This document shows, in pieces, positions 4,029-58,424 of a stretch of 64,000 nt of DNA; within the stretch, counting starts at the first letter, position 1; every line of letters starts with the position of its first letter. Under the pieces are notes generated by a model. It was given only the letters and a program-made list of their open reading frames with translations, searched no databases and was not told where the DNA came from. The stretch is from positions 214,074,546-214,138,545 of the forward strand of contig NC_080670.1 of NCBI RefSeq assembly GCF_030247195.1, read 5' to 3'. Source of the DNA: Topomyia yanbarensis (Eukaryota; Arthropoda; Insecta; Diptera; Culicidae). A program made the translations under genes and the position numbers.

Positions 4029-4168
4029 TGCGCAAAGAGTGAAGTCAAAAAAAGCCTACCTATCGAGCACAATTGGAATACATCTCTGATACCTCTGCAG
4101 CAAAGTTGGATTCTAATTTTGCTCGATAGGTAGACTTTTTTCGGCTTCACTTTCTGCATACTCTTTGC
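4029..4168. repeat. imperfect hairpin repeat
   Basis: The arm around 4040-4079 (with AAGCCTACCTATCGAGCA) is inverted at 4110-4150 (TGCTCGATAGGTAGACTT), and pairing continues outward through GCAAAGAG / CTCTTTGC. Probably a foldback or MITE core. The surroundings (3800-4500) are rich in the motif TCTGNCAGAA and hold no recognisable gene. Confidence 0.6.
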
Positions 4169-4769
4169 GTACCTTTATACTAGGGCCTTTACTGTACGCT
4201 ACCTACCAAATCTTTGTCAGATGTTTTGCTCGATTCGTGCTAAATTCTACCAGGTAGGGATTGCCACGGTCTTTGCCCGGTTTATTTCCGAGTTATGCCA
4301 GGGTTTTTTCTCGGTTCCTGTCAAAATTTGCCAGAAAACGAGAGCAAAACCGAGTTCGCCCTAGTTCAACTAACCCGACTGGATGTGCGCAGAAATCTGA
4401 TAGGGCTGCCAAACCAAGACTGGCAGAAATCTAGCAGAACGGTCTCTGTCAGAAAATTTGCTCACTGGGTGAACGCACCCCACCCGCAATGGGTTGTCGG
4501 GACGGGATAACGGCAGCACTGGAGCTGTCAAAAAAGCAAACCGCATGGTCATAAATTTTCTAAGCCGGTGTAGTGCGGACGGCCCACCGAGGTTCTGCAA
4601 AAGGCGGCTTGAGATTTTGATCGGGAGTTAAAATGCGGTCGGTGTTTCATTCCAGTTTCCTGTGCGTGAATATTGCCGTGATCGCACGAGTCGGTTCTGG
4701 CGTTTTGTAGTGCAAGTGTACACTCTGTATTTCGGCTAGAAGCAGAAAGTAGTCTAATTTGGCCGATTA

Positions 4770-4892
4770 ATGCAGCAGTGGCAAACAGTAGGACAGGAGT
4801 ACAAGACAACACTCAAGGATTTGGACCAATTGTTCGAACAACTGAACGAGTGCAAACGACTGACCGAAACTCAAGTGAAAACCCTGTGTGAT
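4770..4892 (+). pseudogene. PP2A catalytic subunit N-terminal fragment
   Basis: Reads [20 protein letters not shown] followed by TQVKTLCD. This is very close to the N-terminus of insect PP2A-C (microtubule star), whose family pattern is KDLDQWIEQLNEC..LTE.QV..LCDKAKEIL. Similarity stops abruptly after LCD: the expected KAKEIL and the phosphatase domain are missing, and a CA microsatellite begins 18 bases later. The conserved Trp-Ile after DLDQ is Leu-Phe here. The sequence upstream of the homology does not match the usual start. It is best read as a captured or duplicated first-exon fragment. A GTAAGT donor at about 5149 makes a chimeric non-coding exon conceivable. Confidence 0.6.
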
Positions 4893-4908
4893 AGCTGGTT
4901 GCGACGTT

Positions 4909-4909
<1 letters not shown>

Positions 4910-4969
<60 letters not shown>
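4910..4969. repeat. (CA)n microsatellite
   Basis: About 30 uninterrupted CA units directly downstream of the PP2A-C fragment. Confidence 0.98.
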
Positions 4970-4973
<4 letters not shown>

Positions 4974-5510
4974 TGATCGAGAGACGCGTTCGGTGGGACG
5001 ACATCGAAGGAGCCATCGGAAATTTTCTGCTTGTCTGTGCTGCTGTGGAACGGTTCAACGTATGGGAGGTGGATAATCGCGTGCCCAGGCCGTACGCCAG
5101 AACCTCTGCACCCAAGGGACGGATGAGGAAACAACGACGGTAGAGCGGTAAGTCTGCACAGATTCTCCTTCCTCATGCACTTTGTTCGCTTTTGTTAGTG
5201 GGTCAGCTAGCCTTTTTTCTCTCTAGATAACAAGTCTTTTCTACTGAATCAGATTAACGACCTTGCACCTCAAGCTTTGTAAATGTTATTGCTGCTTGTT
5301 GATGGAATCGTTATTGAAGTCAACATTTGCTTTTTCCAAATAATCTTAACGCACGTAACCAGGCGAATCTTTCACTAAAACTGCAATAAAATAAATTGAC
5401 CTAAAAAATTTGAAATACGTTAGGATGTGACATGAAAATTAAGGACATGTGCAGAAAAATAAAGGAGCTTGGTAAACCTCGTCATTTGCCCCTTTTTTGG
5501 GTTAGCAATT

Positions 5511-6394: not shown

Positions 6395-7942
6395 TTGCAT
6401 CACTGTAGCGAACCCGAACATGTTCAGGCTAGCTATGTAGAGATGCCTAGGCGAGTGCCGTTTTCCCGATGGATGGAAAAGGCAGAAGTTGGTACTGTTG
6501 CCGTAGGCCGGGAAGCCGCCGGGCTTCGGCAACAGTACAGGTACGGACGGCCTGTTAAGCAATCAGTTTGGTTTTCGAAAGGGTAAGTCCACGGTGGACG
6601 CTACCAACTCAGTGGTAAAGACCGCCGAGAACGCGATCCAACCGAAAAGGAAAGGTATTCGATACTGTGCGTTAGTGACACTTGATGTGAAGAACGCATT
6701 CAACAGCGTAAGCTGAGATGCCATCGCTCTCTCGGCACGCCGGCTTAGCCTGCCGGTGGGTCTGTACCGGATCTTGGAAAGCTACTTCCAGAACCGTGTA
6801 TTATTATACGAGACCGATGCCGGTCAAAGAAGCGTTCCTATTACCGCAGGAGTCCCGCAAGGCTCGATTCTGGGCCCGTTATTATGGAACCTTATGTATG
6901 ACGGGGTTCTGAGACTAAAGTTCCCTCCTGGTGTCATGGTCTTCGGCTTCGCCGATGAGGTAACCTTGGTGGTCTACGGGGAGTCAATCCCCGAGGTAGA
7001 ACTGACTGCAGCACATGTGATCAGCACTGTGGTGGAATGGATTGGCGCGAGAGGCCTGGAGCTCGCTCAACGCAAAACGAAGGTGGTTATCGTCAACAAC
7101 CGCAAGTCGGTACAACATGCAGTTATCCAAGTTGTAGAAGTCGTGATCACCTCAAAGCGGAGTCTGAAGATTCTTCGGGTCATCAATGACAAGCTGACCT
7201 TCGGCAGCCATGTCGACTATGCGTACAAGAGGGCTTCGACGGCTGTTGCGACATTATCGAGGACGATGTCAAACAGCTCTAAGGTGTGCGCCAGTAGGGG
7301 TAGGTTACTGGCAGGCGTTGAACTGGGAGTAACTGGGCACTGGAAGTAACCAGTTACCTACGGAAGCTGGAGAGCACCTACCGCTTGATGTGTCTCAGAG
7401 TGATATCTGCCTACCGCACGGTATCACACGTGATAGCGAGCATAATGCCAGTCGGGCTGATCATCCGGGAAGACGAGGAGTGTTTTGAGCTGCGTGGTAC
7501 TAGAGGACTCCGCGAGCGTACCAGGGTGGCTTCGGTCGCCAGAACGAGTGGGATAACTCCTCGAAAGGTAGGTGGACTCAACATATTGAGCTGGGTGGGT
7601 AGACCCCATGGGGAAGTGCACTTCCATCTGACACAATTCCGGTCAGCCCATGACTGCTTCGGACAGTACCTCCACAGGTTTGGGCACGCGGAGGCCCCTG
7701 ACTGCCCAGGTGTTGACGAAACTGCGGAGCATATACTGTTTGTAGGTCCTCGTTTCGACGTCGAAAGAAGAGCAATGCTAAACGTCTGCGGCCGGGACAC
7801 AACCCCTGATACCCCTATCAGGAGGATGTCTCAAGCAGTGGAGAAGTGGAACGCAGTCTCGACTGTAACCACTCAGATTGTCTGCAGGTTGCAGAGAATC
7901 TGGCGCGCCGAGCAGCAGACGACAAGCTTGACTAACTTGTGA
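6395..7942 (+). pseudogene. R1-clade-like non-LTR retrotransposon, degraded ORF2
   Basis: Pieces in three frames follow reverse-transcriptase order: a finger-region remnant near 6440-6540, FRKGKSTVDA... and LVTLDVKNAFNSV at 6574-6713, VPQGSILGPLLWN at about 6850, the catalytic box FGFADEVTLVVYG at about 6940, then a C-terminal segment (7385-7942) with the C...C....EH..F.GPRFD pattern. The catalytic FADD is FADE and several frameshifts are present, so it is dead. The C-terminal layout suits the R1 group. No poly-A tail or target duplication is evident. Confidence 0.75.
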
Positions 7943-11289: not shown

Positions 11290-13436
11290 TTAAGCGTGAG
11301 TTTTTCTCCAGTGATCGACCATATCGCTTTTCGACTCGAACCGTTCATCACAAAAATCACATTCGAAACTAGCCTCCGTCTTCTTGTGATGCGTTTTCTC
11401 GTGAAGCCAAAGGCTATGGCGCAGGGCATACTTCTTGCCGCAGATTAAGCAAACGTGTTTTTTCTCCGCCCCATGTTTCTGCGCCATGTGTACTATAAAA
11501 GTCGATTTCTTCATGCCGCTGCGATTGCACAGCTCACACTTGAATTCTTTCACTGGACGTTTATCAGTGTGTCGGTAGTGATGGTGGGTCTGTTGCTGTA
11601 AATCGGAAAAGAATTTTTCCGGACACAACGGACACGTCACGTACGGGTACTCTTGCTCCGAGTGAACATTGTTAACGTGCACTTCCAGCATATTTGCAAC
11701 GTAAGTTTCCTCTGGACAGAGAAGACATCGATAAATCCGTCTACGTGCAGCCGGCGTTGCGTGAACCGTATTTCGATGGCGTTGGAATTCTTGTTTGTGT
11801 TTGAACGTAAGCTGACACCTTCTACATTCGTATGGCTCTTTACCTTCGTGAACGGACAAAACGTGTTTCTTTCGATCCGTGACGACACGAAACCGCTCAT
11901 CGCAAATGGGACATTTATAGGGCAATTCACCGGTGTGCGTTAGCACGTGTGACACCAGGTTCTTTCTCCTCTCGAATGTTTTGTGACATATTTTGCACTG
12001 CGCTGCATACCCATTTTCATGCTTGGCCGCCCGATGTAGCAGTGTTTCTTTGGCCGAAGCGAAGAGTTTCCCGCACACCTCGCACTGTCCCTGTGAGTAA
12101 GGGTAACGTTTGTTTGCTTTCGGCAGTTTGTTATTCGCCCCGTGAACGGTATTTTCGTGTTTGTTGGCAGCTAGTTTCGTGCGGTATCGGATTGCGCAAA
12201 AGCTGCACTTGAAGCTGCGTTCAGTAGGGTCATGCATAGCGAGATGCCGATTGTACATTTCAACCCACGGAAACGTAAGACCTTCGCATTGCTCGCAAGC
12301 ATACCTGTCCTGTCCAGCGTGTGTCTCAATTAGATGACCCATCAGCTCATCGGCGTTTTCTAACTGTATTTTGTTGGGGCAAATATAGCACGACCTAGAG
12401 GTGATGCCGTAGATTGTTTCTGCTTTCTGTTCTTTTTTCGCCTTGCGCCAATATTGTATTTTGGGAAGTGGTAATGCTTCCGTTTCGCTTTCCGTGTCAT
12501 CAAATTTGTCTGGTATCATGTCAAAACTTGGATTCTCGGTAGGTTGCAACGGAAATATGTCCTCTTTATCACTTTCTTTATGATTTTGTGGTTCGTCTGC
12601 ATTCAATTCACATTTCGAATTTTCTGTAGATGGCAAAGGCAAATCGTCCTCTTTTATGTCTTCCTGATATTGAGTTTGTTCTGCGTTTGATTTAGAACCT
12701 GAATTTTCTAAATGTGGCAACGAAAGAGCTTCTCCTTCTACGTTTTCTGTGACATTTTGAGACTGATCTAGTTTCACCTCGTAACCGGAACGCTCACCAT
12801 TTTCCTCCCCGAGAATTTGAACAAGTTGCATCTGCCCTTCGCTAAACTCAATGATAATTTCTTCGATAACCTCCTCAATCACATCTGGATTGCGTTGCAG
12901 ACTCGGTTTCACCTGCTGTAGACATTGATACTGAGCATCTCTGAGCAGAAAAGTATTTTGTATCGTTCGAATCATATCTAGCTTAATGAGACATGGCCTA
13001 CAAATGTGTCGTAAGAAATCCATCTTTTTAACAACAATCCGTAGTGTGTTGAGAATGACAGACTTCAAATTCTGTCCGGCCAGCTGTCCTTTTAGAGGAA
13101 ACATCTGCGACTCCAGTCCGAACCTTAAACACAAACGGCAGCTTGCAAGCGATACGTGCTGACCTCGGCTACGAATGAGCAACTTATTAAACGTTAGAAT
13201 ATGCATACAAATACGCTATTGACTTACTTATTAATAAATTCTGTGGGTTCCTGATACTGCAGATCGTTTTGGTCGGCAAAATGCGTAGAGCAAATTAGTT
13301 CACCATCGGCCTCTTTCCATTCCGTACATCCATTGCCGATCTTGACAGCTTGCAGCCAACGTTTCCGAAAGCGTGCATCCTTTGGAAAGGAGATCAACCC
13401 GGTATGTCCGGGGCAGCTTTGGATACAACAGGACAT
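11290..13436 (-). CDS. THAP + ZAD + C2H2 zinc-finger transcription factor
   Basis: Two exons by my model: 13436-13228 (donor GTAAGT) and 13168-11290 (acceptor TCGTAG), a 59-nt intron, 695 aa. Exon 1 encodes a THAP domain: MSCCIQSCPG, FPKDARFRKRW, ICSTHF and a final EPTEF. The second exon opens with a ZAD domain (zinc Cys pairs CRLC at about 80/83 and CRPC at about 126/129), then an acidic linker with three degenerate ESKCELNADE-like segments. Twelve C2H2 fingers follow from about residue 325 to the end, for example CKICHKTFERRKNLVSHVLTH. ZAD domains dimerise and are almost confined to insect zinc-finger proteins; THAP is a C2CH DNA-binding domain. It is likely a nuclear sequence-specific regulator. 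The acceptor at 13141 would also keep frame but trims the ZAD start. No one-to-one orthologue recognised. Confidence 0.85.
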
Positions 13437-19982: not shown

Positions 19983-22900
19983 TCACATCGTGTTGTACGC
20001 TGCGGTTGCCGTCGTCGAGGTCGCATTGATCCGATGTTTGGTCAGATTGATTTTGGCCAGTGGGTGCGTTTTCCCGTGGTGTTGAACCACTTTTTTGGTG
20101 CCTCCTCCTCCACCACCACCACCACCACCAGGTCCGGTGCAAGTTCCACCACCGCCCACCGCTGGTTGACTATTGGAGGAGGCACTGCCGATGATGATAC
20201 CGCGAACAAATGGTCCCCCACCACTGACCACGGCCGGCGGAATCGGTGGTGGTCGACTGAAATCGTCCGTTGATGATTTGAGAAGCGTCGTTGAGTGAGA
20301 TATCATCAGCGGTTTCTGCTGATTTTGTGCATACTTGAGCGGTTCGAAAACGGATCGTGGTCGCTGACGGAGCACAACCTGATCGGTGTTTGTCGAGGAG
20401 CAGCTACTGTTGTGGCGGTGGTGCGTGTTGAATGAAGCTCGGAAGCGAGGTGCCTCGTAACGGTCCACAAGATCACGAACGGTGATGTCCTCCTGCTGCT
20501 GCTGCTGCTGCTGTTTCGCACTTTGACCCTGGTGCTGCTTGCTCAGCTCTATATGTATGGCAACTGGAGATGATGGCAGAGAGCGACCCTTTTTCTGCTC
20601 CTTCTTGCTTCGATCGTTCACTTTAGCTTCGAAACTCATCTTCAGATTCTTCACGATTCCACTGCCACTGAGGGCGGTGTTCTCATCGTTCTTTTTCTGT
20701 TCGTCGGGGGTATTCTTACGGAAACTAAATCGATGATGGTGGCCTTTCGAAGGGGATTGATGCTCCTCTTCTGACCTTTTACTACCGAAGGGACTTAAAC
20801 AGTACGAACCTGGAGCCGACACGGACAGCCTCGTGTAGATACTGGAACCCATACTCGCCGCAGATCGGTTAAATGGCAAAACTTCCTCACTGTTGGATCG
20901 CTGTTGGGAATTTGTCCCCCTACTATCGCCCACTTTAGGATGTTGATGTCCGAACTTTTCACTACAAATGCGTTTGATCGACGAAGAGGAACGTTCTTCG
21001 ATTTTTTGTTTTGTTCGTTTAACCGTTCCCGGATGCCACGGAATTTCGTCCTTATCGTACGGGAAAATCCCACTATGGCCAAGATCTTCATCCGTTCCGT
21101 CAGCACTGGGATCGACAGGAACTTCAACCACGGTTTGAATGCTACTGGCATTGCTCGTATCGTACGAACCCCAGCTGCTATTCCGCGAAGGTGGCGCCGG
21201 CGCCATCCTTTGTCCCTGATTATCACCCGAGCCCCAGCTCGAATTCCGTGAGGCGCTTGAAAATGTACCTCGAGTTATATCGGCTACGACGGCGGAGTCT
21301 ACACTGGACCAGGAATTCTGGCGAGACACGTGCTGTACCGGCTGCTGCTGCTGCTGCTGCGGTTGAGCAACGTTAATAGAGGCCTGCTGAATGATCTGAC
21401 TCTGACTGGTCCAGCAGACAACCGGTTGAGCTAATGCAGCATTATCACAATCTTGAGAAGTACTCACCACAGCCGGTCTAACATCCCCCGGATCCCACTG
21501 GTCCTCATCGGTTTCGAGGGACGGTGCTAAACTCAGCCCGGTTGCAGATGCTACCGACGAAGCGGACCCTTTCCTCTTGTGATTGCTGCTGGTCTCTTTG
21601 GCTTTGTTCGACTCCAGCTCACTGATGATGGACCGAACCGAAGATGCGGATAAGGCTGATGGCACTGACGGTTCTTCCTGAACTCCCATCCCTCCTTCCT
21701 GCAGATGAACGATCTGATTCTGCGATACACTATAGTTTTGCCCGTTGCCACAGGGCATCCGAATTGTTTTGGCCTCATTCTGCGGTGCCATTAAATGCTC
21801 CAATGAATGTGACTGCTGTCGACTTGCCTCCAGCAGCAGTACCGCCTTCTCCGTATCCGGTGACCAACTTTTCGGTCGTTTTCCTAGCTTCCTCAAAAAT
21901 CTACCACTTTTGTTCAACGTGTTCGTATTGCTACCCCTATTCAGTGCTTGAATCAGCGGAGTCGGTTCACTTCCCGGCAGTAACCGTGCGTCCTTCATAC
22001 CGCCGCTCCCACTTTTCAGATTCGTCTCACTTTTACTCCGCTGCAGCTTCTCTCGATTCTTCATCGCGTCCAGCATGCCTTGGTACGTTTCGAGCTGCAT
22101 GATGAAATTTTTGTTCGGCTTTATGCAGCTACGTTTTTCCTTGACGTGCCGCAGCGCCTGCTCAAAGTCCCAATTGTTGGCCTTCATCGCGTAGGCAATA
22201 ACTACCGATGCGGACCGGGAGATTCCCATCTTGCAATGCACCAGCACCTTCGAGCCCTCCATCCTGGCACGGGAGATGTACTTGAACGTGTTGTCCCAGT
22301 GCTTGAGCAGATCCGTCTTCTCGTCGTCGTACACCCGCACGTTAAAGTAGTCAAATGTCCCCGGGAAAAAATTGTCAATCTCGCGTGTAACGTTCAGAAT
22401 GTGACGGACGCTGTAGGATTGAAAAATCGGTTAGTGATACTGTTATTTGCTTAACCGTGTCAAAAACTTACCCATTCCGTTGCAGCTCCTCGAGATTACT
22501 GGCATTCCACTCGGATCCCAGATAAACGTGTTCGAAAATCTCTGTTGGTGCATCCATCTGACCCAGAATTACCAGCATTTCCTCGTCGATGAAAGACTTG
22601 TACTCGTTAAGATCCATGTCCAGGTGTTCCTCCAGTCTGCCACGAATGAACTTGGAAGTAACCACGTCAAGGTCGACCGACATCATGATTTCCTTGAGCG
22701 TCGTGCGTATGACACACTCCGTTTCCTCACGCTCCGTTGGTCTACAAAAAAAAAACAACGCGACAATAAGTGGATCTCCATCGAGCGAAAACAACCCCCA
22801 ACACTTACTTGTTCCGGACAGAGTCCGGTGACGGTGGTCGGCGACTTTCGAGCGAATCCATCGCGTGCCACTCATTCAAACAGGACCGATCCGAATCGAT

Positions 22901-25900
22901 GTGACTCTCGTAGTAGGATACCCACTCGTGCGACGAACCGGCAGCGAAGAAGTTGTGCTCGCGTGCTTTCGAGGACACTTTGTGCAGGGTTTGCAGGGCC
23001 GACCTGGGTGCGATAGATGAAAGTTTTTCAGATTGAAGTTTCTGAAATGATCAACTCAAACACTCACCACATAGCTTGAACGGAGACCGGTTTGAAAATG
23101 TGCTGCATTCCACACGAGTTCACACTGAATCCACTGTAACCAAAAAAGAATGATTAGAAACAGTTCATTGATCCACTCCCTCAACTTACCCATCCCCATC
23201 CAGTCGTATGGCGGTATCGGCAAGCACTCGCAGCACAAGTCCAACCGTAGTCTTCTCATTGCAATCGATCCCGAGCAGACAGGATTCTTCGATCTCCCCG
23301 CAACCGCCGGTATGAAAATTTTGATTTTTACTACTGCCAGACATGCTACTAGTACTGCTGCTTCCACTCCCCAGGCTGGCCGAGCTGCTAATCACTCTAC
23401 TGATGACGCCAGAAGTACAACCACTACTAGTCACACTAACGAACCCACTGGTATTTTTGCTTACGACCGCTGTCGAGGTCATGGGAGATGTCGTCGCCAT
23501 CGTCACCGCTGGCGCCGCAGCGGCTACCGGTGGCTTAGCACTAACTACACTACCGCTACTACAACTACTAGTTTTATTACTATCACATTTATCGACACTT
23601 TTGTTATTGTTAGCCGCCTTCGAAGAAGTACTGAGAACACAGTTATCTAAGCTGGACACGAACGTTTCGTCTCCGATGCCGCCATAGCCGGCGATGACGC
23701 TAGTACTGGTGGAAGGCGATGCGGCCTTGTACAGAGAGGCGGAAGTGATCTGTTTGCTCATGGAAGCCACCGATGGCGCTGGTGACACCGATGCCGGCGT
23801 CGAACAGGTCGACGTCAACCAGGAGGAACCACAGGTCGCCTGCTGGAGTTGCTGTTGCAACAGCAACGTCTGCTGCTGGCGACTTGGTCGGGCCGGTGGG
23901 CGGGACACTACGACCAGATAGCGGGTGCGACCAGGGCGTAGCGATTCGAGTTTAACGGCCATCTTGAGCGTTTCCTCCGGCCGCAGTAGATAGAACATCG
24001 ACTGCAAATGCTGCTGGATGTCACTGCCAGTCGATGAGGCCGAGGACGATGCACTACTGGTGGTGGACGAGGCAATCGACTCCCGCTCATCTGCACTGTG
24101 TGAGCGGGAACGGGGATGCCGAACCGTTGCGGTAGGATGTGCTGGATGATACTGGAGAGGACAGGTCGGTGTCGCAATGTCGATGATGGTGACCCCAGCT
24201 GCGCTTGTTACGGGGGGTTGTTGTTGTTGTTGGTCCTCGCAGGTGGCGGTGCGAAGACGCTCGTTGGAACCTAGCATCGGGGCGGTAGCTTTGCAGGCAG
24301 AGTGGCTGTCACTCAAACTGTGGGTGGGTAGAAGAGAATAAAGGCATTAGGCATAACGGTTATTATTTCGCATAATCTTGAGAATTGATCACACTGAAGG
24401 TCATTCGGCATAATTATTTGTATTTTCTCCAAAGATCTCGAGATCCGGGGTTTTCTTGGTTCCGATAATAAAAGTATTACTTGTTGAATATGTGAAAATA
24501 ACAGTTCATGTTTCAAACAACCAGCGAGGTGCCAGTCGAAGGCCACCGACCTAGCACCAACCCTATACTACAGGAAATTATTTAAGCGACAGGGCGGGCA
24601 TAGCGTAGTTGGTAATTCCACCATTCCATTCCATAGCCACGCTAACTTATCCAAACGTATTGAGCAAGAATATATGCCCAATACTGACTTATTGACAAAG
24701 CCTAGTCAATAAGTCAGTATCTAGTTCCCCGGCCCCAGATGGCGTTCCCTCGATTTTTGTCAAAAAGTGCATCAGCGGGCTTCTTGAACCACTTCGGCGA
24801 GTCTTTGCGCTATCACTCAATACTGGAACATTCCCTTCCTGCTGGAAAGCAGCGCACATGTTTCCAGTTCACAAAAAAGGAAACAAATCGAAAATTGACA
24901 ATTATCGGGGAATCTCGTATCAAAACTATTCGAGCTGTTCGTTTTAGACCCTCTTTTCTTTCACTGCAAACACTACATTGCAGACGATCAACACGACTTT
25001 ATGCCTAAACGATCGACAACGACTAACCTGCTCTCGTTCACAACATATGTACTCGATGGATTCGCTGACGAATTGCAAACCGATGCTATTTACATGGATT
25101 TATCTGCGGCCTTCGACAAAATCAATCATGATATCGCAATAACGAAGCTGGACATACTCGGTATTCATGGACAACTACTACGCTGGTTTCGTCCCTACCT
25201 CGATGGAAGGCAACTCCAAATCAGCATTAAGGACTGTCTATCTACACCATTCTTCGCTACATCCGGCATCCCACAAGGAAGCCATCTCGGTCCAGTGATA
25301 TTCCTCCTCTACTTTAATGACGTCAACATCAAATTACAAGGACCCCCCCTTTCTTTTGCCGACATGAAAATTTTTCAACAAATACGGGATAAAACCGATG
25401 CCGAGCTTCTTCAGAGGGAACTGGACAGCTTTAGTACGTGGTGTGAATGGTTTTAAACCCGAGCAAATGCTCAATCGTTACGTTCACGCGGAAACGCCAT
25501 CCGATTCAGTTTAACTACCATCTCTTCGACTCGAGTATTCCAAGAAACTCTAACGTCAAGGATCTCGGAGTCATCATGGATTCGGCACTAACGTTCAAAC
25601 CACATACATCATCCATTGTGGATAAGGCTTCAAGACAGCTTGGGTTCATCTTCCGAATAGCGAAAAACTTTAAGGACGTATACTGTTTAAAATCTCTCTA
25701 TTGCGCGCTGGTTCGCTATTGCTCTGCTGTTTGGAACCCTTACTACCAGAACGGTGTCGACAGAATCGAGGCCGTCCAACGCCGGTTCATACGCTTTGCA
25801 CTCCGACATCTTCCTTGGCAAAACAGATTTCAGCTGCCGAGCTACGAAAACCGTTGTCAGTTAATACAGCTCTATACTCTAAGCATCCGGAGGGACTGCT

Positions 25901-28900
25901 CTCGAGCCCTGTTCGTCTCGGACTTACTGTCTGCCAGGGTGGATTGCCCTACAATCCTCGGACGCCTCGATCTTCAAGCTCGCGTTCGAGCTCTGCGCAA
26001 TAACTCTCTTCTGCGAGTCCCGTTCAGGAGAACTAACCATGGGCGCCAGAGCGCTGTTACCGGACTCCAGCGTGTGTTTAAAAGTGTGGCGACGGCAAAC
26101 GCCGTCTTCAACCTGACAAGGAATTCGATAAAAACCGAGGGATGCCAACTTTTGAATAAGTTGCTTTTAAATCCTTTTTGGATATATTACGCCAGTCATT
26201 TTTTATTGGTGAAAGAAACTTTTTAGATTATCTGACTTTAATATTCCCTCCGTTGGGCTGACGGGTTTGACATTTTGCAAACATCATCAAGCATATTTGA
26301 GCATCAGTTTAAAAAAAACCTCTGACAGACAACTGCTTTAAGATGGTTATTGCATTACATCTCGATAGTGGTGCATCGAGGCCTTTTTTATGTTTTGAGT
26401 TTTTTCATGCTCTGAACCAGCCCAGACTAAGTCAGTCAACAGCCTGTGCACACTGGCTTGGCCGACTAGCGGGTTGACGTGGATTGACTTTTGCTGTGGG
26501 CCGTGTTTTCAAACATTATTCCACAGTTTAATGGCGGTGTTGTGGTGGACACGGCTCACAGTAGGGGTCATTGTGTGCCGATTTATCGGTCGACTTCGTC
26601 ATCATGCACAGGTTAATTAAATAGAAGCCTACTAGTTGTTATGTTGTAATAAATGTAGGTTTTGGTACTGTACAATTGTTATATGCTAGTCGTATGTCTC
26701 GCTGCGTATGTGTTCGTCTGAGTATTTGTGACAACTGGATCAGGGAATGGATGCAGAACTGGCGCATATGATGGATTAGTAGGTAACCAATCGTAGGAAG
26801 ATTGGTTGGTCACTTTTTACTGGTATTCAGTTCGTGCATTCGACTCGACTGATTCGGTAAGACTGATTGGATATTCGTGAATCATCCATTCCTGGTCAGC
26901 ATAGCATGAAAAAATTGTATCAGAATGCAATTATTTTCTATGATAAATAAGTATCATTTGCTAGCATTTCAAGACAAGTTCAAGTAGCCTGATTGCATGT
27001 TACATGTATTCTTTTCTTCTACTTAATTCGTCTGTTTTTGTTGTACTACTGGTCTAGTTCTGCTTTTCCACTACTCATACATATCAAAAACAATATCGGT
27101 CAATTGATACGCTTCTATTTAATCTCTTTGCATCTTTTTTTTTTTTCTTATTTCGGCATGTTATTTTCCCTTTTATTACTATATCTTAAATTAGATTCAT
27201 ACTCACATTCACTAACACAATCAATTGCATATTTTCTCATATACACTCACAATTTCTCTCATTCCGTACGTACAAACGCTCCTAGCCCTCACAATAACAC
27301 AAATCTGGTAACAAACGCGAGCATGCAATTGCAATCCTCCACACATACTTACGCCTGCGATTTCACCAACATTGACACCCCGTTAATTAAATGAAAGTTT
27401 CAATACTTATAAATTTACAATTTCGCTACCCTCGGTCCTAGCAGCCTAGACTCATGACTTCAGTTGGACCAAAAAAACTCTCTTCTAGCTTCTGAACCGC
27501 GCATCGAAAATTAAGTATATGCACGGGCCGCGCAAGCATTCAAGAACACACGCAAGTATACAATGGTCACACGGTCAAAAAAATCAAATTTATGCACGCG
27601 AAGCCACATTCGCACTAGCACCGGGACAAACAAGTTACGATCATGGGCAGTATATACCGCCTATCATTACCTTCAATTCCACCGTGCCCAGATACCCAAG
27701 AAAGATCTAATGGACTTTTTAATCACCTTCTGTAGCGATTGAATGCATTCCCCAAACAATCTAGATGAGCAAGTTACTGACTACAATGCTTTAAAAGTCG
27801 CTTGACTATCAGAGAACATGCATCCCAAGTAACAATTGAAAATTTATAGCACGCTACAAGTGCAATCTAATTTTTATTAGTGGCTATAAAGCTACCATAA
27901 AACCTCTAGTGTTACTAGGAATATTTCGTATATCTGTAGTTACACAGTTATGTGGTAGGCATCTGCATCACTGCCGATGATGAGAGGAAACCCATTTTTG
28001 CCACAGTATGATACAACTCTGTTGAAATCATCAGAAGGTGATGGTGATAGTTCGGAATATTCCGAACAATAGACGTATTCCTTGTTTATGTTACCAACAG
28101 GTCATATTGACTGTGACAGCATGAACATCGCGAGTTGTGAGGTCGGATATAAGACATCCGTCAAAAGCACTATTCGCAAGTATACATGCACGAGGCATGT
28201 CACGTATATTTTCATGCCATATTTATTATAAGCTACGAAGACGGGGTTAAGCAGCCTTCCAACATAGAAGTTTCTTTTGCGGAAATACGGTTCTTGAACC
28301 AAAGCCAGATATTTTTCCTTCCTGCATAAGGCGGGATTCGGGATACTTTCATAGTTGCTGTACGTTTGTGCTGAAGATTACTGTGTGCTACTCTAACCGT
28401 ACTCAATCACAGCATTACACATTTCATCGGGAGCGGTACAAAAGGCCGAATCACAAAAGGCCGAATAACAAAAAGCCGAAACACAAAAGGCCGAAGATGT
28501 TCTAACCTACCACAAAAGGCCGAAACCCGAAAAGGCCGAATCACAAAAGGCCGAATCTCAAAAGGCCGAATCACATAAAACCGCAAGTCCACATGCATCA
28601 GAAATCGAATGATCTAATCTGTTGGTGTTGATGATACTTTAGTATTGCCCATGACTAATATTTTAAAATAAAATCGCGTTTATAAAAAGCATAGATAATA
28701 AAAGAAAATTAATATAAAAAAGTCAGTTTGGCTAAATGTAACCGCTAGCCACAACTATTGTTTGGTTGTTGCACTGCGCCAGCGCATACGGCGAAGCCAG
28801 TGCGATGCGGCCTAGCCGCATAACCGAGGCCAAGGATCCGAAGCGGCGTAAAGCCGCTGAGGATCCGCCGGACGAGGTGGCCGCCGACCCGCCGTCGGAA

Positions 28901-44158: not shown

Positions 44159-47100
44159 ATGTCGGACGACGATGTAATCCTCGTTGAAGACTCACCCCAG
44201 CGGAAATCCATCAGGTCAGTTTAGAGCCCTATACACACCCGCAGCCGTTTCAACCATTTTTTTTTGGCTTATTCATTTCAGTTGCGACCAAATCCCGGAG
44301 CTCTGGGTTTTGGACAAACTGATCGCAAAAAAGCACTTCAGTCAGTTCGGTAAAATCACCGGGTTCATACTGCGACCGAAGCGGTTTTCCTGCACCGTAG
44401 AGTACGACAGTCCCGAAGCAGCGGAAGCTGCCCTGGTACGGGGTGGCCAATTTCGCGATGTTAAGTTCAACGTATACTGGACGGATGAAGCGCCATCAAC
44501 TGTCCTGGCCAGCAGGGATGAAGGTTTCATCGATCCGGACGTACAGCAGGAGCTGGATTCAATGGGCGGGGGACCAACGGCTGCGCGTGTTCGGCAGTCC
44601 GCTAAGCAGTGTGAGTGTTGTAGGTTGATCATTTCAGCGGATCTATTTTGATGATTGTATTTATTTTTCAGCAATTGAATCATTTTTGAAGAAAACGGAA
44701 CGTTTTCCGGCACCGCCGGTAGTGGCACCGCCGAAGCAATTTCGAATGCCTGCGCGGCCGGAAATTCTCGTGGATTCAAAGGTTGGCCAGGCTAGGGCGG
44801 AGTTTGAGTTGTTAGCGAAACAACCGGCTGCAACGGCTGAGGAAAGATATCGGATGCTGGAAGCGAAAGATAAATATCTGCGGCTGACAACCGATCGGAC
44901 AACGGATATCCGAAAAGCTCGCAGCACTCAGGGAACCTGTTGCGATATGTGTCCGGAGAAGGAACGCTACATGAGGGAATGCAAGCTACAGGTTGCTTCA
45001 TATGAAGCCGGTGAAAGTTCGGCACAGATGGACCACGGGAAGGCAATCAAGCAGTATTCGAGAAGTTCGGCAGATCAGGAAGCACCTATGCCGCACGAGT
45101 TGCGATCGGAGGAAGGTTTAGAACTGACAATGAGTTATTTACTGCACCGAATTGTGGATGATTGTGAAGATGAAGAGGTTAATCTGGGTGATTGGTTTCA
45201 TTTCGTGTGGGATCGGACTAGGAGTCTTCGGAAGGACATTACCCAGCAGGAGTTGTGTTCGGTGAAAGCGGTGCGGCTGGTGGAGCAATGCGCTCGGTTT
45301 CATATTCATTGTGCTGCTCGGCTGGTCGCCGAAGATCCTTCCGTGTTTGATCAGCGGATAAATACGGAAAACATGACCAAGTGCCTACAGTCGCTGAAGT
45401 ATATGTATAATGATTTGGGGTTGAAAGGAATTCGTTGTCGGAATGAGGCTGAGTTCCGAGCCTATGTGGTGCTGCTTAACTTGAACGATGGAAACTTTTT
45501 GTGGGAAATTAAACAGCTTCCTGCGGATATTTTGCACTCGAAGCAGATTCGATTTGCTCTGGAGGTTTACTTTGCTTTGGAGAACAATAATTACATTCGT
45601 TTCTTCCGGTTGGTTCGACAGACTACCTACATGAACGCTTGCATTTTACTACGCTATTTCAACCAGATTCGGACGCGGGCTCTTCAAACGATGCTGAGAG
45701 CTTACACCTATCGAATGCCGGCTACTTTTTCTCTGGATCACCTCGTGGATTTGCTTGCTTTTGAGGACGCGGATGCAGCTGCTTCCTTCTTGGATTGCTA
45801 CGGGTTGAGCGTGGATCAATCGCTGGGTACGGTTCTGATGGATCCAAAACAGTACGAACGCCCGGAGATTCCCTTTCAACTGGAGCGAGCTTACAATTTG
45901 GTCGAAAGCAAACGGGACTGTACCGTTGGAGAAGCCATTTCCGGAGAACCACTGAACGACGAGTCCAGACTAGATAGTCACCAGCTTGAGGAGAGTTTCG
46001 ACGCATCAGGCTTCCTACGACACGATGTTCTAAGAAACATTCTGAAGCAGAGTAAAACCGTCGAAACTGTTTCAACCACCGCTAGTAACGACGATGACGC
46101 CAAAGTATTCAAAGTCCCATCACCAACATCCATCTCACCGAAACCGTTCTTTCCTAAACCGATCGCATCCAGCAACTTTTTCCAACCGTCCCGTTTCACG
46201 GCCAAAATCGAAACCCATTCTCCTGCTCCGATTGCACAGTCTGTTTTCTCCAAGGACAGTCCTACGCCAACCCTGTCCGGTATAACGCCACTACCGAAAA
46301 CCTCGGAAACGCTGAAACCAGCAACATTTGGCCAGAATCTGTTCGGCAGTGTAGCATTTTCGCAACCATCCCGACCGACGATGGCGTTCGGTGAAGGATC
46401 TTCAATTTTTGGTGGTCCATCGGTGGCACTACCGAAACCAGATCTACAGCTTCAGGACGATCAACGGGCACAGAGAGAGGCGGACGAACAACGCCGTCGG
46501 ATGCAAAGAGAAGAGGAAATGAGACAACTACAGATACAAGCTGAGGAACTTCGTCAGAAACGGGAAGCGGAAGAGGAACGTATGCGGCAGGAGTTGATCG
46601 CACGAAAGGAAGCGGAGATACGGCGACTCAAACAGCTGGAGGAGGAAAGTCGACGACAAATGGAAGTGACGGTCAATAAAATGTCGGAAAAATTCTACAA
46701 CGAATTGTTGAAGGAGATCTGCGAAGAGGATGTCACGAAGATTGCGACCAGCTGCTATCAACAATATCATCTGTTGGAAAAGTATCCGAGAGTTCTTCTG
46801 GAGGAACTGCAGGAAGAACTGTTAGCGGAATTTTTACCCGAAGTGGTGCGGGAAGAAGTGCTAGTTAAGAATTGCCAGGAAAATCGGCAGCTCAATATAA
46901 TGCGAAAGTACTTTGGAATGTGGCGCCGGAACGTCCATAATTTACTGGATAACCGAATGCAGATCGAGAATAGTCCAGCATGGCTTCCGGAAAAGATGCT
47001 TCACGATCAGGCAAGAGAATGCTACCAGGAGCATCAGGTCCTAAGCCTAGCCAATATGAAACGGTATGTGGGAGGAGCTCCGAAGGTCATCCAAATTCCG

Positions 47101-48777
47101 GAATCGAAAGAAGAGAAGGTCGATGTTTTCGAAATCGTTCGGAGTGGAATCAAATCCACTAATAGGCAGCAACTGAAGGGTCTAGTCAAGAATCACATCT
47201 ACTGGAAGATATCACTATCGATACCCTTCAAACAAGAGGAAGATTCGTCCGGGTTTTACTACTTCATCAACAAATGGCTGAAGAATGTTTTCAAACGTAC
47301 CACTACAGATACAGGAAATAGCTTCTTTTTGGAGATGCAAGAATCGCCGAATGCTCGAGAGCGTTTGGTAGTTAGCATGCGGCTTCTGAAAGGTGTTTCA
47401 ATTCTTGATGAATCCAACACAGCTAATCCGATTGCTCTAGACAACTCAAATGGACTTCTATTCTTTTTGAACTCAAACAACATTCAGAAATCCCGAGAGA
47501 GATTGCACAATCTTCTACGCAACGCCGACTACTGGGGTCCAATTCCTCTCGCAGTAATTGCCTACAATTGGCACCTAAATTCCGACCAAACCCTCGAAGA
47601 ACTTCTCGGTCTTGACCTTCTGCTAGAGGAAGGTAAAATCGATGACTTCGAATTTTTTCACCATCAGGAACGGCAAAAAACTCCGCTTCGGAAAACCCTT
47701 CTCAAAGCGTTCGCATTCCTTGCTTCCGGTTATAGTTGCGACTACCCACTGGAAATGCAGTCACAAACTGCCTTCATCGGGACCTGTCTCGGTGACGAGC
47801 TGTGGCACCGATTCCAACTTTCTTCCTACCAAAATCCAAAACTCGACGAAGCTTGCCACGACATAAACTTCGTACTAAACCTGTTCAACCAGGCAATCGA
47901 TCGCACTAGCAACCTCGTACAGCATAATCTCTCGGTTTATCCCGATTTTCCAGCCGAATTCAAGCCGTTTGTGTCCAAACGCCGCTTCGACATCCCTCTG
48001 GATTTGGAATACTTCCCTAAGGACTGGCGCTCGTCGGATCGTCAGCAAAAGCTGGTCACATTTTTCCGGAAGCTTAAACTAAAGCCCATCACATTCAATC
48101 CAGCAAACTGTCAAACCATCAAAGACTTTCAAACCAACCTCCTGTCCTATATCCGCAGCTATTCCGAACAGTCAAACGAAAAATCTAACCGACGCTTGCT
48201 AGCCCTCCTTACTCAGCAACTGCTCCGATCTCTCCCACTCAACACCTCGTTTCCACAAGCCATCCCGTCACTCAACTGGCTACCTCTAATCGCCATCCTA
48301 GCCAACGAATTGTTACGCTTCCGCTGGAGCGAATCAATCATTCACCTACCCTGTGAAGTGATCTACCACCGCGAGGAGTACGAAAGCTACACCCGATCGC
48401 TTTGGTGGTTGCCGGAGTTGAAAAGGCTACCCCAGAAACGGAAATCACTCTCCGAGCGGAAGGACAAGTGCGACGACGTAGTCGACGCAAACGTTGATGA
48501 TATCGAAAACGAAAGTGACAATACAGTACCGTTCGCTATCGGTTCGATGCCGACCGCTAAAAGAATGAAACTGAACATCAGCTTGGCGAAGGAAGATCTG
48601 GAGGAGATTCTCGATCGCGGTAGACGCTGTCTGCAGCGAGCCGACGAAAAGCTGACTCAGTGCCGGGAGTTTACCGGACAAACTAAGGAACTGGCGAATG
48701 CGCTGGATGGAAGGCTGTTCGAACAGGAACGGGCGTTTCGAGTGAACCGATGGGCTTGGGAGGCAGATTTTCGGTAA
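44159..48777 (+). CDS. xmas-2: xmas-2 / GANP (MCM3AP) mRNA-export scaffold of TREX-2
   Basis: Three in-phase exons: 44159-44214 (donor GTCAGT), 44282-44610 (donor GTGAGT) and 44672-48777, 1496 aa. Start MSDDDVILVEDSPQR. An RRM-like domain spans residues about 20-95 (LWVLDKLIAKKHFSQFGKIT). The SAC3/GANP domain starts at CCDMCPEKERYMRE (about 217) and runs to about 520, with the signature QSLKYMYNDLGLKG and an export-scaffold helical body. A low-complexity F/S/P stretch with SVFG/FGEG-like motifs follows, then a charged coiled coil (about 720-795, QREADEQRRRMQREEEMRQ). The C-terminal part is GANP/CID-like and binds ENY2-type partners in known orthologues. Drosophila Xmas-2 acts with ENY2 and PCID2 at nuclear pores to couple transcription to mRNA export. 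The size fits the fly protein. A possible ATTAAA poly-A signal lies near 48805. Intact. Confidence 0.93.
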
Positions 48778-52288: not shown

Positions 52289-52570
52289 CAGGGTTGCCAC
52301 TATTTTTCAAAGAAACTAAAATGTCAGGGAAAATTTGGCACCTGACAGCGACCTCAAAGTCGTCGAAATTTGGCATACATTTTAGTCTTCATAGAATGTG
52401 CTTCAATCGATTTTTGTAAAATTTGGGACATAACTACCCAAATTACCAAAATGTGTATGTAGCAGATTCTAAAACTTAAAAATCTGTCAGAATGAGAGAT
52501 TTGTCTTTTTGTCTGGAAGCTGCCAAAACCTCTGGCTGTGCCAGATATATCTGGCATAATGGCATCCCTG
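52289..52570. mobile_element. Mutator-like MITE family C, copy 3
   Basis: CAGGGTTGCCACTATTTTTC at the left and TGGCATCCCTG at the right. Interior (ACAGCGACCTCAAAGTCGTC..., TTGTCTTTTTGTCTGGAAGC) is shared with copy 4, which starts only one base after this one ends. Confidence 0.8.
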
Positions 52571-52613
52571 ACAGGGTTGCCACTATTTTTTAAAGAAAAT
52601 CTAGCAGTGTAAC

Positions 52614-52644
52614 CAGAGACTAATTGAGACGGCGGACTCACGAG
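52614..52644. repeat. P element left 31-bp terminal inverted repeat
   Basis: Starts CAGAGACTAATTGAGAC and ends ACTCACGAG. Differs from the right repeat mainly in a five-base central block (GGCGG against TACCA). Confidence 0.85.
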
Positions 52645-53806
52645 TTTTCCATGGCTCAAGAGGTACTAACTCATGTAGTACTAGAGGTCCCTCGAAATGT
52701 CAAATAGAAAATGCCTCGATAATCAAGCATGCTTTGCTTATCCGACTGTTTTACTTATTGCGTGTTTATTTGTTGCTAACGATTTTTCCAAAAAGAAAAT
52801 CCAATTATTATATCACTGATCTAGAGCTGAGGAGTGTGTTATTTCCTGCTTTCGATCTTGGAATCTTAACAAGGACTTAATCTAAATATATCTTGCTACC
52901 GATAAGGACTATTTCCAAGAATTTCATTCCATCTATGACCCCAAATAGTGTTCACAAAAGGGATTCGACTGCTTGTGTTCAAATCACCATGAGTGACACA
53001 TTCATTTTATTCAGATACTGAACCTTAATCTAGTTTTAACGAAAGGTGATCTAAACACACACATGGGTGGGCCCTACATTCAACTAAAGGTGTGAGAAAA
53101 ATGGTCCTACGCTTTCCTGTCGCAGTTACTAATTGGATTTTTTTTGTGAAAATCAAGTCTTTTAGTGGGCGAAAAGTAGTGCAGTGCAAGCTAGACAACT
53201 ATTTGTGATAGAGACAATACTGGCATCATCAACTAACTATTACTTATATTTCAATGTTGCGAGCAGATGATAAAATCGACACGCATATAATACAAGTAGG
53301 TTTCCTTAGACAAGTTCGATGGGCATGGTTCTCTATAAGACGACTATGCCATATGATAGCAAAACTTATTGTTGAGCTCTCTTTACAAACTGATATACAT
53401 GTCACCTAAAACCACTCTAGACCGCATAGTAAACGACAAGCGAAAGACGAAACTTGCAACTGAACCCTGCAGGGAACCATAAGGCAACCTTCCGGCAAAC
53501 TTCAGCGAGACCAACGTAAAATTCTACGTGCCACATTATAGACTTTCAATATTTAATGAGGTTGGACTACAATATTTTTAATGAAGTGAATGCGTGGATC
53601 AGTTTTTTACATTTCTTATAATTTTCTAAATAAATGGCATTTGTTTTGCTTCCCATCAATTCATTTTTAATTCGGTTTTTTAGAAATTACGGTAGTACAG
53701 TACATATCGCGACAAATTACATTAAAAATCTCTTCAGTTAATCAATTCAGTTTTCAACTTTGTTTTTCTTGAATCCGCTAAGAAAAGATTTTTTATTGAT
53801 TATAAA

Positions 53807-56800
53807 TTACAATATCATGTCAATTATTTTAACTATTTTCACCTCTTTGCAAGGAATCCCCATTCTTCTAGCCTTTCCATTCCTTTTGCCACCAGCTCGA
53901 AGGTTTTTGTTTATTTTTGCTTGCATTTTAATCACTTGACCATTTATGATTGTATTGAGCAGACAGTCGACGAATTTATTCAAGCATGGATAACAAACCG
54001 TTGTAATCGACAAATAGTTGTCAAAATCAACGTATTCACGTAATCTTGACTTCACACCCAAACGGCTTTCGCAAAGAAATTGAAAGAACTTTTCTTTGAA
54101 TGCAGCATGCAAAGTCAGACCAATTTCCAAAGCCAGTTGATTTGGATACACGAATCCATCCGTGTTGGAGTAATGTTTTAGTTGACAAAATAAGTAGTTT
54201 GTATGACTCCTATGTTCACTATCGTGAGCTAAACTCAATAAATCACGACATTTTCTGTGGATCATTTTAGATAGTGCGAACCCTACCACGTAGGTCAAGG
54301 CGTTCATCTCAGGTGCATCAGGTGTGTTAGCTGTCGCAAGATCCAATGGTTCAAAGGTGCGAATACGCAAACTTTCGCTAGCATCAAATGCCAGAGGATC
54401 ATCTTGATCGTAATTAGATGTTTTTGTATGTTCATCGACAATGTTTTTTATGGCACTAGCTTCACAGTTGGAATTGGATATTATGTCCAGGGTCTTCGAT
54501 ATGCTACTGTATTTCAATGCAGCCGCAAACTGATGTGCTGTAGGAGCATCGTTCGCTCCACATGTTCGCCTAATGATTGAAAACTCATTTTCTAGTGGAT
54601 CTTGGCAAATATAGTTCGTACACAAATGAGAAAAATTTCGCTCTTCATGAAGAATTCCCCACAATATACGTAGCCCATTTATGTTGTTTCTAAAACCAGT
54701 TAAACAAGGAGGATACCGCTGTGTCGCCGTCAGTTGATCTCTCGCTTCTTTCGTTGCCTACAAAATATGTGTTGCAATTGCAAAAAAAATATTTAAACAT
54801 ATATTTTAAATTTGTTACTGTTGCTACATCGAAACATGTCTTCGGCACAAATGTAAGATTTTCTAAAAAAGTGTTCATTCGATCAAGAAACTTCCAATGA
54901 ACACTGCCTTCAAATATTGCTCCACGGGTTGGCTGGATATAAATGAATATAATATAGAATAATATTAAATTGTTGTACCGAACGATACCTTGATAGAATC
55001 TGTTTCGAAACGTGAGTTGAACACGTCGAAAAGAGTATCAATCTGCTCAATGAACAAGGATGTGGCTATTGCCTTCTCGGATAAAATGTTTAGCTTAACA
55101 TATGCTTCGATGGTCTTAGCTGTTGTTCTGCTAAGAGTAGTAGTTGCAAGCTTTACATTCATTTTTGAGAAGGCTGGTAAGTCAATAGCTTTCCTTTTCA
55201 ACTTGGGCACTAATCGTGGTACATTTTTAATATCAATAGTGAACAAATCTCGGATGTATCGAAATGAAACAATCTGTCCATCAAATAATAAATTTTTCGC
55301 AAATAAGTTGTTTCTCACGGACTTGAAAAGGTGGGGATTATCGTAGAATACAACCACACGATGAGTATTTACTGTGAAAACAGGGCTCTCTGTGGTTACC
55401 CCTAACTCTTTTGCAGTTTTTATATTCGTAGGATGTTGATCCATTATTAGAGCAACCGGACAAAATTTAGCTTCCATAACCCGACGAACTGCTTCACATA
55501 TAATCTCCGCTTGACGTTGATAATCCAGCACACCATTTGCAAGAAAATATCCGATCGCCTGGAGAATTTCAAAAATATCATTTGTCTAAATTCTCAACAT
55601 GCCTTTTTAATTTTTGTTTTTGGGGTCTCACCTGCTTATATTTTGTGTTAAGGCTTCTGATCATCACCGTGATAGCCTCATTGGCTAGATTATCGGCATT
55701 ATTATTTTCACATTCTCTCGAAACGCCATCGTCTACAAATCCGTGAAAACGGTCAGTTTTCGCATGGTAATCTAGTTTTGCTCGGATGGCCATTCCATCA
55801 ATCAAGATGGCAACAACTTTGTCCTTTTCGGACATGGACATGCCTGCAGTAGCCATACGTCGCAAAATCTCTTGATTGAATCCAGGTAACAGATCAACGG
55901 AACGATGCCATCCAGTCACGGTCTTCGGATGTGGCATACACAAAGCGGTTTTTGCGCGAAGATTTCTATATGCCGATCCTGAAGACAGTCTTTGTCGGAT
56001 GGCTAAATGTCTTGTGTGTACATAGCGTCTTGCGTGTTTGTTTTTAGAGAAATTTGCGATTGACTCTACAAGAACAGGGTTTTGCTTAATAGAATCCAGC
56101 AATTTCTTGTCTTCGATAATTAGTTCATTTTTTTCCTTCAATTTTACTTTAAGCAATCGATTTTCGTTGATTTTTGTGTTCAATGATTGTTTTCGTCTGT
56201 TACAGAGTCGTTTCAAACTACGGCGCACTTTCCGCTCGCTTCTCAACATTTTCTCCAGAATTTCAACCTTAGTTTTTTCAGATTCGTACATTGCTCGAAA
56301 CGTTAGTGAAGACTCGCTTGTTGAATCAACATTCATTATTAAATTAGGGGAACCAATAGCTTTTGCTGTCAAAAGTAAAAAAAGATTGGAATTGGATGAT
56401 TTGCAAATTGTGTGTTTAAAATTTAAAGAAATAAATCGCAAATCACATTTAAAAGATGCCATTGTGTTAGAATAAGGATTCTTGAGACACATAGTCGTTG
56501 TACATGAACTGGCTAGTATAGGACATTAAAATTAATACAATAATTTTCACCTGAATTTTGGTTTCGGGTCAACTCAATATTTTCAATTATTCGTGGCTGA
56601 GAGTTTTCAGGCAACCCCCCAATCGGAGAAACTGTTCCATGGCATTTCCTCATCTCAATATTCTTACTTTCTTCATCAACATATTGATCATCATCCAATA
56701 TAAGCCATTCTTCCTCCAACGGTTCATTTAACTGATCAACGCTGTCATCATTTGTTTCATATAATCTATAAGTCAATTTTGTATTTGTATTAATCATTCA

Positions 56801-57225
56801 AAAATCAAATTTACCTTCGGTTCTTTGGACAATTTTTCGGTTTCATTATAGAAGGAAAAGCATTTTTCTTCAACCTGTATTTATGTTAATATATTTTCAG
56901 AATATCACAAAACTGAACAAAATTACCCTCTGGAAGGATCAAAAGCGTTCCGAAAACAGGATTCCTCGAAATGAATCGAGCATATTCGTCGATGTCCTAG
57001 CTGACCTCGCAAAGCTGTGATTTCAAGCTCCGGGGATTCGCAGTATTCCACCCATCTAGAACAACTAAATTAGAAATAAATACGCTCTTAAAGTTGATTA
57101 TTTCGCCAGAACTACTCAAATTAAATTAATGCTTACATTTGTTGATCCTCTGGGAACTTATGAAGTGAAATTTTACTTCCATTCTCCCAGCCGGAACAAT
57201 TTTTCACCGCGCAAATTTTCCCCAT
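53807..57225 (-). CDS. P-element transposase (THAP9-like), apparently intact
   Basis: Eight exons by splice sites and phase: 57225-57137, 57055-56927, 56874-56815, 56765-56551, 56365-55632, 55558-54989, 54932-54819, 54757-53807. They sum to 2862 nt, 953 aa, with no internal stop. N-terminal THAP domain: MGKICAVKNCSGWENGSK, LHKFPEDQQ, WVEYCE, ICSIHF. A leucine-rich coiled coil (MLRSERKVRRSLKRL) follows, then the helical region LLDSIKQNPVLVESIANFSK and an RNase H-like core. Candidate catalytic residues: Asp344 in ILIDGM, Asp449 in LIMDQHPTN, Glu694 in QDPLENEF. The region between the last two fits the GTP-binding insertion, with NPHLFKSVRNNL. CGANDAPTAHQF after the Glu is also P-typical. Known P transposases bind inverted repeats and cut and paste with GTP as cofactor. 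AATAAA (minus) sits at 53797-53792, just past the stop. Exons 3 and 7 are short and rest on phase agreement. Confidence 0.85.
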
Positions 57226-57461
57226 TATTGTTTCGATCTAATCTATTGCATTAGGTAAACAACATTCCAAACTAGTTACTAAGCAAACAGAATGGGTGTA
57301 GCAACGACCAATAAATAAACAAGTACTGCTACCAACTTTACCGAAAAAAAAATCAGGTAACTTGATTATTTTGTCAATATTGGCAGAACTGAAGGGACCG
57401 TGCTCCCTCTGCTACTTCAAAAGATCTAGTACACAACGTGCCATAGAATTTTGAGTGTTTG

Positions 57462-57492
57462 TTCGTGAGTTGGTAGTCTCGATTAGTCTCTG
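57462..57492. repeat. P element right 31-bp terminal inverted repeat
   Basis: Reverse complement reads CAGAGACTAATCGAGACTAC and so on. The transposase ATG lies about 240 bases inside this end. Confidence 0.85.
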
Positions 57493-57711
57493 GTGTAACT
57501 AAAAAGTCTGGCGAAATTTGTCACTAACAGCAACCTCAAAGTCATCGAAATTTGACATACATTTTAGACTTCTGGCACAAATTTCCGAAAGTTTGAGTGT
57601 AATAACTTCTATAATTTAAAAATCTGGCAGAATGAAAAGTCAGTCTTTTTGTCTGGAAGCTACAAAAAAAATCTGGCAGGGCCGGATAAATATGGCATAT
57701 TGGCATCCCTG

Positions 57712-58424
57712 AGAGCTGCTAGTCCACTGATGGGCTATTTACATGCTTCTAACAGACATCGAAAGATAGTTTTCTTCTTCTCATGGCAGAAAGAATAACC
57801 CCTCCTCCAGAGAAGGAACCAAAGCGAAGAGTAATGCAACTTTCCTGTTTCTCCTCTTTTTTTAGACTAATGATATTGTGTATTCTTTTTGCTTTCACAA
57901 ATAATGCGTTATACGATTAGGTATGACACTTAATCTATTCTACAGCATCGACTTTCTTATTCAGCCACCCATTCTGGGTCAGATGCAAGACCTAACATGG
58001 AGAACAGACGCTCTTTCATTACCCACTTCCCTAATGTCAGCATACGACTAAAAATCCCACTGGGATCGGTTACCCACTAAGGTTTTTCATATCTCACCTG
58101 GACTTCTGTAAAACACTTCTGCTATACTGTCTGTCCAGTGGATAAGCTACAAAGCGATAGTTAGAATTGATTGTTTGCATTACTGACAGTTCTAGCGGAG
58201 CAAATTTTATCTTCTGTTCTGTACGACATCAAATTGCACCACGAAAAAAACGCTGTAGAAAATTACTTAGTGGACCAATCCTTTCCAAACTATCAGACAA
58301 TAAAATATAACCCACTAGTAAGCATTATACAACACTGGCTGCAGTTTCTTCTGTATGGAAACCCACTTTTACTTTATGTCTTCCTCGAATTTGACCTCCT
58401 TGGGATGCTTTCGTGGTACCTACT
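57712..58424. other. intergenic, nothing recognised
   Basis: No gene or clear repeat between the MITE end and the mariner relic. Confidence 0.35.

Follow-up and report, generated by a model that had tools for sequence, protein, structure and literature searches.

Does every transposon built like a P element share the spacing at which P elements join their targets? P elements are a textbook transposon. The 8-base-pair (bp) duplication that they leave at their targets mirrors how far apart the two joining sites lie in the solved complex. The question is raised by a 4879-bp element at positions 52614–57492 of a 64,000-nucleotide (nt) stretch of the mosquito Topomyia yanbarensis (RefSeq assembly GCF_030247195.1, contig NC_080670.1, forward-strand positions 214,074,546 to 214,138,545; this whole stretch is called the window hereafter), which a preliminary description made from the letters of the sequence had presented as an apparently intact P element flanked by 7-bp repeats. 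With a probability of roughly 0.85, we conclude that it is a young copy, complete in length, of a low-copy, cut-and-paste transposon of the P superfamily from a culicine mosquito, and that this transposon inserts with a 7-bp stagger.

A P-superfamily element with a transposase gene of eight predicted exons

The window element belongs to the P superfamily: the protein domains, the three acids, the inverted ends and the target duplication are all present. Its limits were drawn from its ends, its gene and four copies of ∼99% identity elsewhere in the genome (L009–L012), and its transposase is encoded on the minus strand, the left terminal inverted repeat (52614–52643, plus strand) being the gene's 3′ end and the right one (57463–57492, minus strand) its 5′ end. 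The two repeats, seen already in the preliminary description, match at 25 of 30 positions, in keeping with the ∼31 bp by which P-element ends are recognised. Immediately outside them, GTGTAAC is present at 52607–52613 and again at 57493–57499 (strand not applicable), a perfect 7-bp direct repeat; nine settings of the ends gave no other in-register duplication of more than 5 bp. The repeat had been noted before, its unusualness for a P element had not. A diverged tandem repeat of ∼283 bp hosts the insertion in its second unit. Unit 1 (52289–52571), a diverged paralogous empty site, runs uninterrupted through the same place, except that next to the site the two units differ by 14 bp in length, and unit 2 (52572–57720) is split by the element into 52572–52613 and 57500–57720.

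The predicted gene comprises eight exons and seven introns, all GT..AG, and the 2862 nt of exon sequence read as 953 codons plus a stop, as had been proposed. Exon 1 (57137–57225) contains the start codon and the first half of the THAP domain, exon 2 (56927–57055) its second half and exon 3 (56815–56874) its end (AFPSI); exon 4 (56551–56765) encodes a poorly conserved linker, exon 5 (55632–56365) a Lys/Arg-rich stretch and the start of the RNase H domain with D354, and exon 6 (54989–55558) D449 and the GTP-binding insertion domain; exon 7 (54819–54932) is followed by exon 8 (53807–54757), with E693 (in QDPLENEF), the C-terminal part and the stop. By eye, there is a possible ninth intron after residue 942, with a donor-like GAG/GTGAAA at 53843 and an acceptor-like TTTTCTTAG; read in frame, it would lead to a stop after seven codons and leave the protein end nearly unchanged.

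Profile searches placed THAP (47 bits), RNaseH_N (E 2e-32), GBD (E 1e-16) and RNaseH_C all above the Pfam cut-offs in the 953-residue protein, and C5, C10, C55 and H58 are candidates for the zinc ligands that had been reported in the THAP domain. The transposase of Drosophila melanogaster is shorter, at 751 residues. It is the sole solved relative found by sequence (6p5a, E 1e-20), and in this alignment, in which the residues were counted, D354, D449 and E693 stand opposite D230, D303 and E531, the catalytic acids as numbered in the accessible part of PMC7776569 (catalytic acids also in that of PMC8230255). From the catalytic triad suggested earlier, D449 was retained, and D344 and E694 had to be replaced, position 344 being Glu and 694 Asn.

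Like the D. melanogaster P element (6P5A, 6PE2), the window element thus combines a THAP domain with an RNase H domain split by a GTP-binding insertion, D/D/E at homologous positions and terminal repeats of about 31 bp. It differs in length (4.9 versus 2.9 kilobases (kb)), in its seven predicted introns against three (four reading frames) and in its 7-bp duplication, the Drosophila element being described with 31-bp terminal repeats, 8-bp duplications and 11-bp subterminal repeats (PMC7776569, accessible part). A candidate subterminal inverted repeat in the window element (52763–52775, plus strand, matching 57309–57321 on the minus strand at 12 of 13 positions) is weak, a match of at least 12/13 being reached in 22 of 500 shuffles.

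A constant 7-bp duplication in the family

The 1.168-gigabase genome was searched for copies with the left end, exon 6 and the right end; the best candidates were scored, so that all counts are lower bounds. Each query found the family elsewhere in the genome, with at least 15 of the 19 matches listed for exon 6 at 91% identity or more. Target sites were typed in 28 two-ended copies, in a first set of eight (the window copy, L009–L012, L018, L019 and L023), a second of six (L022, L025 twice, L035, L036 and L037) and a third of 14; these are part of the 52 left-end and 44 right-end matches listed, the remainder of which are untyped. Exactly 7 bp are duplicated in register in 27 of the 28 copies, and 8 bp in none. 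Counted by independent sites the figure is 26 of 27, L019 being left out because it shares its 20-bp flanks with L018. The lone exception (L020/L038/L067) is an internally rearranged copy without a duplication; four further loci (L024, L026, L027 and L028) have one end only.

Of the 26 typed insertions, 14 are window-family copies of at least 88%, and the other 12 are from a related group whose left ends are 77–78% and right ends 85–87% similar. Members of this group are mostly 1.6–2.3 kb long and, because of this length, are presumably non-autonomous. At L025, two 1.75-kb P derivatives (253–2008 and 3471–5224) point in opposite directions and are each flanked by a separate 7-bp duplication, and ten further members of the group were typed, all with 7 bp. 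L018 and L019, copies of 94–96%, lie ∼2.2 megabases apart on one contig in opposite orientation with identical 20-bp flanks; the locus was either duplicated or artificially doubled in the assembly.

The 26 targets also resemble one another. T occupies position 2 in 42 of the 52 half-sites, giving a weak palindrome RTNNNAY (P ∼1e-14 against the base composition of the window, with half-sites taken as independent). What is unusual for a P element is the constant 7-bp duplication in a family with short ends and introns.

A 7-bp duplication at a palindromic target, made by a THAP transposase, is also found in Galileo of Drosophila, a branch of the P superfamily, and the duplication length would be accounted for if the window element belonged to that branch rather than to the P elements proper. 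In the available portions of PMC4168063, PMC2775673 and PMC10990002, Galileo has a 905-residue transposase and duplications that measure 7 bp in most copies and 8 in three, with the consensus GTANTAC, to which our palindrome is similar, but which it matches weakly. The same portions describe a gene without introns and internally repetitive terminal repeats of hundreds of base pairs, in contrast to the 30-bp ends and seven predicted introns of the window element, and we regard a Galileo affiliation as unlikely. The Anopheles gambiae elements AgaP2–AgaP15, compared by their description, resemble the window element in their 27–32-bp terminal repeats, their length (3.5–7.5 kb), the 873–894 residues encoded by the coding masters and their non-autonomous derivatives, and differ in that all duplications are 8 bp and the genes have three exons (four in AgaP3) (PMC1562414, accessible part). 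No account of a 7-bp P-type family in mosquitoes was recognised in the literature searched, most subscription journals being outside that search, and scans of viral and prokaryote contigs found no relative.

Recent movement of the family

The preliminary description had proposed that this copy could be recently active, and at the level of the family this is borne out. Together with the window copy, L009–L012 make five full-length copies. L011 and L012 differ by no substitution and nine gap columns over ∼4.87 kb, yet they occupy different sites, with the duplications GTGGAAC and GAAATAC and with 20-bp flanks unlike each other; because of this identity at different sites, we conclude that the family moved recently. 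The 953-codon frame is open in the window copy and in both L011 and L012; L011 keeps the two Asp and the Glu, the L012 protein is identical to it, and both retain both ends, so that the loss of an acid or an end is not common to all copies. If synonymous sites are assumed to change at the rate of 0.016 per site per million years quoted for flies (PMC4168063, accessible part), the absence of changes between L011 and L012 gives a rough 95% upper limit of ∼20,000 years, and a divergence of 0.55% corresponds to ∼0.17 million years. L023, a 360-bp derivative of 98–99% identity, is internally deleted, which suggests that the ends are also used in trans.

These copies also bear on the idea that the open frame belongs to a domesticated host gene rather than to a transposon, for which the frame itself and some sign of purifying selection could be cited. 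The intact ends, the perfect target duplication and the presence of near-identical whole elements elsewhere in the genome make domestication extremely improbable.

The C terminus and the non-coding ends

The closest proteins found outside this genome are the uncharacterised P0002 from Armigeres subalbatus, P0003 from Malaya genurostris and P0001, with 43–52% identity over 36–78% of the query and alignments that run across the exon junctions 5/6, 6/7 and 7/8 of the window gene. All three have a C-terminal extension of 168–234 residues, from RRMGI on (pairwise E 8e-31 to 6e-10), which the window family lacks. The gene might on this ground be truncated, having lost the C-terminal domain along with sequence that became the 1.2-kb 3′ non-coding region (52644–53806), and the extension is indeed borne by L030, a P locus of the same genome. 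A search of the stretches retrieved for L031–L033, L039–L043 and L045 did not detect the extension, nor was it detected in the window, and trees did not discriminate between gain and loss (approximately unbiased tests, p 0.33, 0.23 and 0.17). Recent damage to the window copy was rejected, because its last codon is also that of the young copies L011 and L012 and because the sister families are likewise without a detected extension; truncation in general appears improbable to us. As separate observations, L029 has a piece of the extension domain in a locus with stops, and a transposase core was not detected within the 9.9 kb retrieved there; the extension of P0001, used alone as a database query, returned only P0001; and a structure prediction for P0001 from three sequences had a mean predicted local distance difference test score of 32 and was not used.

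Two traits that had been singled out as unusual turn out to be ordinary. The 1.2-kb 3′ non-coding region is common to all five full-length copies and thus a trait of the family (six open reading frames in it gave no Pfam match), and the length of the protein is shared by the full-length copies and is near the range of Anopheles P transposases (873–894 residues; PMC1562414, accessible part). The 5′ non-coding region occupies 57226–57462.

Other P-like lineages in the genome

The 7-bp duplication extends beyond the window family. Six copies from three further transposase lineages (L031, L032, L033, L040, L041 and L045) have 7-bp duplications with 13 or 14 of 14 terminal bases matching. None of 40 shuffled controls gave a pair with at least 11/14 bases and a duplication of at least 7 bp; at least 13 matching bases without a duplication were obtained in seven of the 40. 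At L029, L039, L042, L043 and L044, the end scan gave no usable pair. In one copy of a distant lineage, L070, 14 of 14 terminal bases match and the duplication measures 8 bp if the end is read as AGTAG and 6 if it is CAGTAG; it is probably 8 bp. This copy spans 451–4965 of its locus with a 686-codon frame, and at least 40 related left ends (40 of 1049 candidates scored) were found at 88–100%.

In a phylogenetic tree, a branch supported at 100/99.9 separates the window clade and its sister, 15 rows in all, from the Drosophila P element (8 bp), from L070 and from four other rows. All eight rows typed as 7 bp, from four lineages, are among the 15. The tree has long branches and was built without Galileo and Anopheles proteins, and the way in which the 7-bp and 8-bp labels group on it is by itself not striking, being equalled in 65 and 63 of 500 shuffles. 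The 7-bp stagger is so far documented for the typed lineages; genome-wide, the Pfam GBD model has at least 135 matches (150 of 172 candidates scored), and most P-like loci are untyped. That culicine mosquitoes harbour a deep clade of P elements with a 7-bp stagger, recently active here and apparently beside 8-bp lineages, is a proposal to which we give an even chance.

Evidence that weighs against these readings

Several observations count against the conclusions drawn so far. By the strict rule that a P element duplicates 8 bp, the family would fall outside the P elements, and exon 4 and the last 11 residues of the protein are without support from relatives. The 8-bp contrast within this genome comes from one L070 copy. 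Inside the window clade itself, the sole candidate ends of L030 match at 11 of 14 bases with an 8-bp duplication; this pair is unconfirmed, the match stops after 11 bases and the locus was left untyped, but none of 40 shuffles (10 of them of L030 itself) gave a pair like it, so that it is not easily ascribed to chance.

The remaining objections concern the copies. Full length does not mean working: the frame of L010 is interrupted by a stop at codon 701, and exon 8 of L009 has lost 14 bp. The comparison of L010 with L011 (three synonymous and nine replacement changes) looks neutral. The window copy differs from the other full-length copies by 27–36 substitutions (27 from L011 or L012), and has 23 private substitutions with respect to all four; because of these, and because seven of its 15 coding changes relative to L011 are replacements, it may be weakened. 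It could even be dead or non-autonomous and mobilised by other copies, with an open frame that reflects youth only. The broken state of two of the five full-length copies fits this, and so does the probability of 0.50–0.60 that 15 random coding changes produce no stop, so that the open frame alone says little. On the other side, the window copy retains the three acids, the THAP ligands, the splice sites and both ends, and eight of the 15 coding changes are synonymous, a share above the 0.22–0.28 expected from random changes in its coding sequence (P 0.007–0.033), which weakly suggests that the lineages between the window copy and L011 were under constraint. We lean somewhat against a dead or non-autonomous window copy; judged by its sequence, it may be autonomous in its own right.

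Neighbouring genes in the window

At 44629–48777 on the plus strand lies the gene for xmas, the germinal-center associated nuclear protein, whose product is 78% identical to that of Malaya genurostris; the next matches are from Wyeomyia, Sabethes, Aedes and other culicines. By this gene, the host would be placed among the culicine mosquitoes, close to the sabethine Malaya. A long open frame at 19983–22430 (minus strand) resembles the slingshot phosphatase and an open frame at 11290–13215 (minus strand) a C2H2 zinc-finger protein, to judge by eye from their translations; those at 6717–7942 and 24899–26226 (both plus strand), judged likewise, look like parts of non-LTR (long terminal repeat) reverse transcriptases.

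Discussion

The anatomy of the element, its reading frame, the conserved acids, the near-identical copies and the 7-bp duplications are all observed. A route of transposition can be proposed for them by analogy with the Drosophila enzyme, on the supposition that the gene is transcribed and spliced, that the protein is active and that its domains act as they do in the fly. The spliced 953-residue protein would bind the element ends through its THAP domain, the ends would be paired with GTP bound in the insertion domain, and cutting would be carried out by the D354/D449/E693 site. The element would then be joined to target nicks staggered by seven bases, at the weak palindrome, and repair of the gaps would yield the 7-bp duplication.

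A young, low-copy family that has P domains, short ends and a constant 7-bp duplication, apparently beside an 8-bp lineage, makes the determinant of this spacing testable with natural relatives. Were the deep 7-bp clade confirmed, a 7-bp duplication would no longer set Galileo apart, and a comparison of close P transposases could show which change in the protein determines the distance between the two active sites. With its substitution-free copies, the family also offers a case in which populations of a mosquito other than Anopheles could be used to trace recent P-like movement.

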